Assembly (NCBI GenBank): GCA_005223035.1
Contig: NJBK01000006.1
Coordinates: forward strand, 37,310-101,309
DNA: 64,000 bases
Source: Chloroflexi bacterium B3_Chlor
GTDB lineage: Bacteria > Chloroflexota > Anaerolineae > UBA7937 > B3-Chlor
Reading direction: 5' to 3'
The position numbers and the translations under genes were made by a program. Positions 58,205 through 58,897 of this stretch are shown here, in pieces. The stretch's first letter is position 1; the number at the start of each line of letters is the position of its first letter. The notes under the pieces were generated by a model, which was given only the letters and a program-made list of their open reading frames with translations, had not been told where the DNA came from and made no database searches.

Positions 58205-58327
58205 TTACCGCTCGCCCGTCAGTAGTCGCTGTACCGGTGGGAGCAGCAGGCCTAAGCAGCCCAGAGCCGCAACGATGAGCAACAGCACAATCGCCAGGAT
58301 CCACGTTGGGGTTTCAATTGACTTCAT
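58205..58327 (-). CDS. Possible 40-aa single-TM peptide
   Basis: MKSIETPTWILAIVLLLIVAALGCLGLLLPPVQRLLTGER*; homologous sequence duplicated at 58741-58827. Confidence 0.45.
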   Translation of the reverse strand: MKSIETPTWILAIVLLLIVAALGCLGLLLPPVQRLLTGER

Positions 58328-58346
58328 GGGCTCACCCCGCTATAAT
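58318..58346 (+). promoter_or_regulatory. Sigma70-type promoter, module 1
   Basis: TTGACT-N17-TATAAT. Confidence 0.7.
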
Positions 58347-58354
58347 CAGCCATG

Positions 58355-58427
58355 GGTGGGGGTGCGCTGGGGCGGCTCGTCGACTCCAAATTGACAGGGC
58401 GCGGGTTCGATTCCCGTCACCTCCACC
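58355..58427 (+). ncRNA. tRNA-like structured RNA: acceptor helix, CCA anticodon-type arm and T-arm, shrunken D region
   Basis: GGTGGGGGTG pairs with CACCTCCACC (58418-58427); GTCGA-CTCCAAA-TTGAC; GCGGG-TTCGATT-CCCGT; only 14 nt where a D-arm should be. Confidence 0.55.
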
Positions 58428-58454
58428 TCCCTATTCCCCCGGTTTCGTGGATAC

Positions 58455-58483
58455 TTGACAAATTCCCTAAAATGGGATATACT
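58455..58483 (+). promoter_or_regulatory. Sigma70-type promoter, module 3
   Basis: TTGACA-N17-TATACT. Confidence 0.7.
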
Positions 58484-58489
58484 GGTATT

Positions 58490-58595
58490 GGAGTCGACGA
58501 GCATGAGTCGCGCTCTGGGGAAAGTTGAGGAGGAGAGATGGGATCGCCCTGACCCTCCAGCCACGCACCGCAAGGTGGGTGGCCTTTCCTTTTTT
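58490..58595 (+). ncRNA. Candidate ~105-nt small RNA
   Basis: Own promoter and own terminator; 58488-58502 TTGGAGTCGACGAGC is the exact reverse complement of 58375-58389 and 58877-58891 (the first 1-2 nt may precede the transcript start). Confidence 0.55.
58560..58595 (+). terminator. Rho-independent terminator
   Basis: GCCACGCACC-GCAA-GGTGGGTGGC (one mismatch) followed by CTTTCCTTTTTT. Confidence 0.8.
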
Positions 58596-58740
58596 GGCCC
58601 CCATCTCACGTGTGGCCCCCCGGATACCCCTGCAATACCACGGCCCAGCCTCCTACGGTCGTCTTGGAGGTCCGCTCCACTCCGCTGCCCTCCCAATCCC
58701 CCTCCCCCATACCTCTGGAATTTCGCGGTTCCCCATCCTG

Positions 58741-58827
58741 AAACAGTAACCAGCCGAGAGGAGCCACCGCTGCCACGATCAAGAGAGCCAGTATCGCCAG
58801 CGTCCAGGTTGCAGCTTCAATTGACTT
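58741..58827 (-). repeat. Second copy of the KSIE-type TM-peptide/promoter module
   Basis: Minus frame KSIEAATWTLAILALLIVAAVAPLGWLLF vs KSIETPTWILAIVLLLIVAALGCLGLLL at 58205-58327; no ATG at the equivalent position. Confidence 0.7.
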
Positions 58828-58849
58828 CGCCCGACAACCACAGTATAAT
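58821..58849 (+). promoter_or_regulatory. Sigma70-type promoter, module 2
   Basis: TTGACT-N17-TATAAT upstream of the 58926 lipoprotein gene. Confidence 0.75.
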
Positions 58850-58876
58850 AGTAGGTGGTGCCGTTGCGCTGGCTGG

Positions 58877-58897
58877 GCTCGTCGACTCCAAGTCGAC
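58877..58897 (+). promoter_or_regulatory. 5'UTR hairpin with same 15-mer as module 1
   Basis: GCTC-GTCGA-CTCCAAG-TCGAC. Confidence 0.7.

Follow-up and report, generated by a model that had tools for sequence, protein, structure and literature searches.

A duplicated degenerate-tRNA cassette and a predicted small RNA complementary to both of its copies in a lineage-specific stretch of a Chloroflexota genome

Does a 15-nt sequence that stands twice downstream of strong promoters, and once as its exact reverse complement at the predicted start of a third transcript, mark an antisense RNA together with its targets, or the leftovers of a local rearrangement? The question is raised by some 600 bp of Chloroflexi bacterium B3_Chlor, which lie within the window analysed here (the whole 64,000-nt stretch of DNA). 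A preliminary description of this window had proposed a three-promoter locus encoding a small RNA able to pair in trans with two neighbouring leaders, one of them belonging to a lipoprotein gene. The elements on which this proposal rests are as follows, with promoters numbered as in that description.

58318-58346, + strand: promoter 1, TTGACT-N17-TATAAT, 11/12 consensus bases, predicted start ~58353
58375-58389, + strand: 15-mer GCTCGTCGACTCCAA of module 1, exact; 5' strand and loop of the anticodon arm of a tRNA-like RNA
58455-58483, + strand: promoter 3, TTGACA-N17-TATACT, 11/12 consensus bases, predicted start ~58490
58488-58502, + strand: TTGGAGTCGACGAGC, exact reverse complement of both 15-mers, where the small RNA is predicted to begin
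58490-58596, + strand: predicted small RNA of ~107 nt (from promoter 3 and fold)
58560-58596, + strand: intrinsic terminator, stem GCCACgCACC/GGTGgGTGGC, GCAA loop, CTTTCCTTTTTT tail
58821-58849, + strand: promoter 2, TTGACT-N17-TATAAT, 11/12 consensus bases, predicted start ~58856
58877-58891, + strand: 15-mer GCTCGTCGACTCCAA of the lipoprotein leader, exact; 5' strand and loop of a ~10-bp hairpin

All three promoters, each with a 17-nt spacer, were confirmed at the positions first proposed, and a promoter scan returned them as the sole plus-strand matches within 57500-60000; shuffled versions of the region held a mean of 0.8 promoter-like sites on both strands together. The two copies of GCTCGTCGACTCCAA and their single inverted counterpart are also as described, and these three places are the only exact occurrences in the whole assembly. 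Matches with 2 mismatches across the assembly showed no excess over a reversed-pattern control. Simulated 64-kb sequences carried a mean of 0.05 exact inverted repeats that were 15 nt or longer and lay within 700 nt, and 4000 simulations of the 626-nt region produced none; the inverted match is beyond chance. Relative to the predicted starts, the 15-mer occupies ~+22 to +36 for promoters 1 and 2, and the complement, given a start at ~58490, ~-2 to +13 of the small RNA. The terminator said to follow module 3 is present as well, as a hairpin at 58560-58583 with a 10-bp stem (one mismatch) and a T-rich tract after it, which was found through the predicted fold and missed by a simple scan. The candidate small RNA thus comes with its own promoter (11/12) and an intrinsic terminator, and its fold is more stable than that of shuffled sequences (z -3.16; 0/200 shuffles as stable).

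The two 15-mers were described as lying in two leaders, and we found these to be related to one another and to a tRNA.

58354-58427, + strand: degenerate tRNA-like RNA (Rfam, ARAGORN, minimum-energy cloverleaf)
58793-58902, + strand: second copy of 58290-58400, 80/110 aligned bases identical; lipoprotein leader
58911-58919, + strand: ribosome-binding sequence AAGGAGGAG (homology to an ortholog starts at ~58907)
58926-59690, + strand: predicted secreted lipoprotein of 254 aa, with a Thr/Pro-rich linker and two ~80-aa repeats

Module 1 did not hold up as a plain leader: it encodes a degenerate tRNA, as judged by the Rfam tRNA model RF00005 (31.4 bits over 58358-58425; gathering 29), by an ARAGORN call of tRNA-Trp(cca) at 58360-58427 and by a minimum-energy fold that is itself a cloverleaf. 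Its acceptor has 7 bp (GGGGGTG/CACCTCC), extendable to 11 bp, with G3-U70 and A73, elements tied to alanylation; the anticodon-arm loop reads CTCCAAA (anticodon CCA) with T33 and A37, and the T arm is canonical (5 bp, loop TTCGATT), followed by a 3' end of ACCT. The D-like stem is only 3 bp long with a 4-nt loop, and the usual conserved residues are missing. Of the features of a functional tRNA, then, the locus offers the cloverleaf, the 7-bp acceptor and the canonical T arm, and lacks a standard D arm, a score clearly above threshold and a codon in need of a decoder. The 3' part resembles tmRNA, with 85% identity over 40 nt to the genome's own tmRNA and up to 91% over 33 nt to those of relatives. 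The tmRNA model nevertheless scored 37.1 bits, under its cutoff of 47, aligning at the two ends only, so that no full model match with a tag reading frame was obtained. A permuted tmRNA was likewise rejected (24.8 bits against the cutoff of 47; a standard tmRNA exists in the genome). Since the genome carries two standard tRNA-Trp(CCA) genes (contigs C7 and C30) and a complete, normal tmRNA (contig C42), the tRNA-like RNA is probably dispensable for translation.

The second leader is a truncated duplicate of module 1. It retains the promoter and the hairpin, lacks the T arm and ends at 58902, and homology to the lipoprotein ortholog of a same-family genome (G003) starts at ~58907, just 5' of the ribosome site. 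From these two abutting boundaries we conclude that the promoter and leader of the lipoprotein gene are derived from the duplicated cassette. The proposed position of the second 15-mer, in the 5'UTR of the gene at 58926, therefore stood, with the leader itself now recognised as a copy of module 1. Within the non-coding part of the duplicate (58328-58400), with the 15-mer and the -10 box left out, 29 of 51 bases agree, whereas the 15-mer agrees at 15 of 15, and by this contrast the 15-mer looks selected; the neutral chance of such agreement, computed post hoc, is 0.57^15 or ~2e-4, rising to 3e-3 with the better-conserved coding part. The 3' arm of the hairpin is altered in copy 2 with pairing retained; copy 2 reads GTCGAC-N5-GTCGAC, the GTCGAC core being palindromic. 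At 58488-58502, the boundaries of the inverted copy differ by no more than 1 nt from those of the segment common to both copies.

Promoter 3 appears to have a different origin. Within its sequence, CTTGACAAATTCCCTAAAATGGGATATACTGG, lies an inverted repeat (ATTCCC..GGGAT, 58462-58478). The sequence agrees almost base for base with the promoter that precedes a HigB-like ORF in a relative of the same class (G029), and we infer that promoter 3 may derive from an auto-repressed promoter of antitoxin type. A remnant of a HigBA module was considered for module 3 and rejected, as no HigB-like reading frame follows the promoter. Inversion of promoter 3 between flanking inverted repeats was also set aside, because the tRNA-like fold would not survive the flip and the neighbourhood showed no recombinase. 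As a separate observation, promoter 3 resembles one located 5' of a putative membrane-anchored protein gene in another genome (G010), and the inverted repeat that these promoters share may represent an antitoxin-type operator of this class.

We then considered whether the complementarity is usable between folded RNAs. Cofolding predicts a 14-15-bp duplex of the small RNA with both leaders, with an isolated duplex energy of -29.4 kcal/mol and a cost of 1-2 kcal/mol for opening the target loops. The net pairing gain is 11.6 kcal/mol for the lipoprotein leader, a value equalled by 9 of 300 random segments of the window, and 5.9 kcal/mol for the tRNA-like RNA, for which 62 of 300 segments did as well. 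For the proposed pairing with two leaders, the arrangement and the predicted duplex are upheld, with a gain that is modest for the lipoprotein leader and unremarkable for the tRNA-like RNA. Forcing the pairing left the accessibility of the lipoprotein ribosome site about unchanged (e.g., 0.56 to 0.60), so simple ribosome-site control is not supported, and the computed accessibility likewise lends no support to masking of the ribosome site by the hairpin. The tRNA-like RNA and the small RNA are not separated by any clear terminator. Were transcription from promoter 1 to read through, the RNA would include both the 15-mer and its complement, which at equilibrium are predicted to pair in cis with a probability of ~0.9, displacing the cloverleaf.

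The whole system, together with further genes, belongs to a stretch that is specific to this lineage.

58191-60797, no strand: lineage-specific stretch of ~2.6 kb carrying the whole system (blastn against the congeneric genome G001)
58205-58327, - strand: divergent 40-aa single-helix membrane peptide MKSIETPTWILAIVLLLIVAALGCLGLLLPPVQRLLTGER (translation)
58740-58827, - strand: decayed second copy of the peptide, start codon missing at the homologous place

The stretch lies between the gene after rplI and a radical SAM gene. With window positions 57001-62000 as blastn query, the congeneric genome aligns up to 58190 and again from ~60798 (91.8% and 94.8% identity) with nothing between, and two further genomes (G002 and G003) also lack the stretch at this place. 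Searched against 60 relatives, the DNA of the locus matched most strongly and most often the 3' ends of tmRNAs (and one tRNA-Ala), the other matches being the resemblance to promoter 3 and a few weak ones. Across 397 genomes of the class, the small-RNA region returned only the promoter-3 resemblance and coincidences with coding sequence, and the promoter and 5' half of module 1 returned its own two copies and otherwise short matches of ~18-50 nt, which, judged from their lengths, we read as chance. The leader and small RNA are therefore known from one genome only among these 397. Plasmid and phage records gave no match to the locus DNA, and viral contigs gave none in exact-pattern and lipoprotein searches.

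The lipoprotein itself has a wider distribution. Relatives occur in scattered Chloroflexota; the G003 ortholog (67%) lacks this leader, as does a second relative (JACPEP010000044.1). Because the G003 ortholog does without it, any regulation exerted through the leader would be recent and dispensable. The protein had no match in Pfam, NCBIfam or PDB, and its repeats follow the pattern FxMTHDGxxNFAI...LLVNxIGxFxGxKA...DGNWT. The second gene of the stretch (59780-60634) has an N-terminal membrane segment and a weak domain resembling 3-keto-disaccharide hydrolases (28.6 bits, cutoff 26.8).

The small peptide is encoded divergently to copy 1 of the cassette, with start codons that overlap the promoter 1 -35 box. 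Differences between its two copies number 11, 5 and 15 at the three codon positions; the sequences suggest that the frame of copy 2 was once constrained. A homolog on contig C93 of G003 (73% over 30 aa) has repressor-like and other genes nearby, with the RNA elements absent. We additionally observed that this homolog has XRE-type regulators and a putative secreted nuclease in its vicinity, which suggests a mobile-element setting, and that the 40-aa hydrophobic peptide resembles type I small membrane toxins in size and character.

The explanation we put first, tentatively and with somewhat less than even confidence, is a locally evolved antisense RNA that pairs with the two hairpins, the pseudo-tRNA perhaps acting as a decoy. 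The sequence itself shows that a cassette of ~110 bp (strong promoter plus the 5' half of the degenerate tRNA) was duplicated, with copy 2 placed directly before the lipoprotein ribosome site and supplying promoter and leader, and that between the copies promoter 3 and the terminator define a predicted RNA of ~107 nt whose first ~13-15 nt are the hairpin complement. This RNA may pair with the CUCCAA/UCCAA loop and go on to invade the lipoprotein-leader hairpin. What becomes of the mRNA would change as a result, more probably through stability or RNase processing than because the ribosome site is blocked directly. Since it presents the same loop, the pseudo-tRNA from promoter 1 would be a decoy competing for the small RNA, and in a read-through transcript from promoter 1 the 5' end of the small RNA would be masked in cis. 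Given the antitoxin-type-like inverted repeat in promoter 3, the small RNA is probably repressible. The absence of other outstanding sites in the genome fits a dedicated local partner. The fullest version of this reading is a three-RNA circuit built locally within ~600 bp in one lineage, in which a pseudo-tRNA duplicate became a leader, a dedicated antisense small RNA arose between the copies, and the intact pseudo-tRNA serves as decoy; this we consider rather unlikely.

Two rivals are serious. The stronger, possible though still on the unlikely side, is neutral assembly: the cassette was duplicated, a template switch or inversion placed the reverse-complement strand of the hairpin behind an unrelated promoter remnant, and the complementarity has no function. 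Such an origin accords with the lack of the locus in the congener and all sampled relatives, with a second peptide copy that has lost its start codon, with the likeness of promoter 3 to a stray antitoxin-type promoter and with the ordinary net pairing of the tRNA-like RNA (62/300). It sits less well with an inverted copy that fits both cassette copies equally and within the same boundaries, or with the identity of the 15-mer in both, which is improbable by drift and argues against drift alone, although recent gene conversion could explain part of it.

The other serious rival, to which we give a small probability, places function in the DNA: a protein would bind the 15-mer as an operator downstream of each of the three promoters and repress them jointly, whatever the orientation of the site. 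One site per promoter and the palindromic GTCGAC core, doubled in copy 2 as GTCGAC-N5-GTCGAC, are in keeping with it, but the full 15-mer is no palindrome, the genome holds no more sites above control, no DNA-binding regulator was found among the genes of the stretch, and promoter 3 already has an inverted repeat of its own.

A reversal of roles is very unlikely. Here the promoter 3 RNA would be a short mRNA (GGAG, ATG at 58504), and the CUCC loops of the pseudo-tRNA and the leader would be antisense to it and cover its ribosome site; TTGGAG does lie 10 nt 5' of this ATG, and the CUCCAAA loop of the pseudo-tRNA is cheap to open, but the 58504 ORF crosses the terminator, shows no recognisable protein-like feature and seems to have arisen by chance in sequence rich in G+C. 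That the locus encodes a working or new compact tRNA inserting an amino acid at UGG, with the small RNA antisense to its anticodon arm, is hardly credible despite the cloverleaf, the CCA anticodon with T33 and A37, the canonical T arm and the alanine-type G3-U70/A73 acceptor, given a 3-bp D arm with a 4-nt loop and missing conserved residues, marginal ARAGORN and Rfam scores, two normal tRNA-Trp(CCA) genes and a copy 2 without T arm.

The antisense reading has partial parallels among known systems, the closest precedent, by analogy, being the Bacillus cereus pseudo-tRNA named tRNA-Other, which has a Trp anticodon, lies beside a genomic island, has no role in translation and may act as a tRNA-like element within a larger regulatory RNA (PMC3399842). 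The RNA described here is degenerate, carries a Trp anticodon and lies inside a lineage-specific stretch. It differs in belonging to another phylum, in its alanine/tmRNA-type acceptor, and in that a truncated duplicate of it forms the leader of an mRNA and a predicted small RNA encoded nearby is its exact complement. With the tRNA-like domain of tmRNA (SsrA) it shares its 3' half (85-91% over 31-40 nt), the absence of a standard D stem, and G3-U70 and A73, but it has neither tag reading frame nor pseudoknots. In sponges of the 3'ETS-leuZ type, a functional tRNA operon provides the sponge from one of its spacers, and the small RNAs are encoded elsewhere; here too an RNA derived from a tRNA transcript would soak up a base-pairing small RNA, but all partners lie within 600 bp. 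Like trans-acting antisense small RNAs with a 5' seed, the candidate has its own promoter, a 5'-terminal pairing region, an intrinsic terminator and a leader hairpin loop as target; unlike them, its target lies ~20 nt 5' of the ribosome site, the predicted accessibility is unchanged and there is no conservation.

To our knowledge, little is documented about the birth of new small-RNA circuits, since those known are mostly old. If the antisense reading is true, a decayed tRNA, a captured leader and an exactly matched small RNA standing side by side, all of them missing from the congener, would show such a birth at an early stage, with tRNA remnants turning into regulatory parts. If the complementarity is instead neutral, the locus would still be a clear case of promoter capture through duplication of a pseudo-tRNA cassette.
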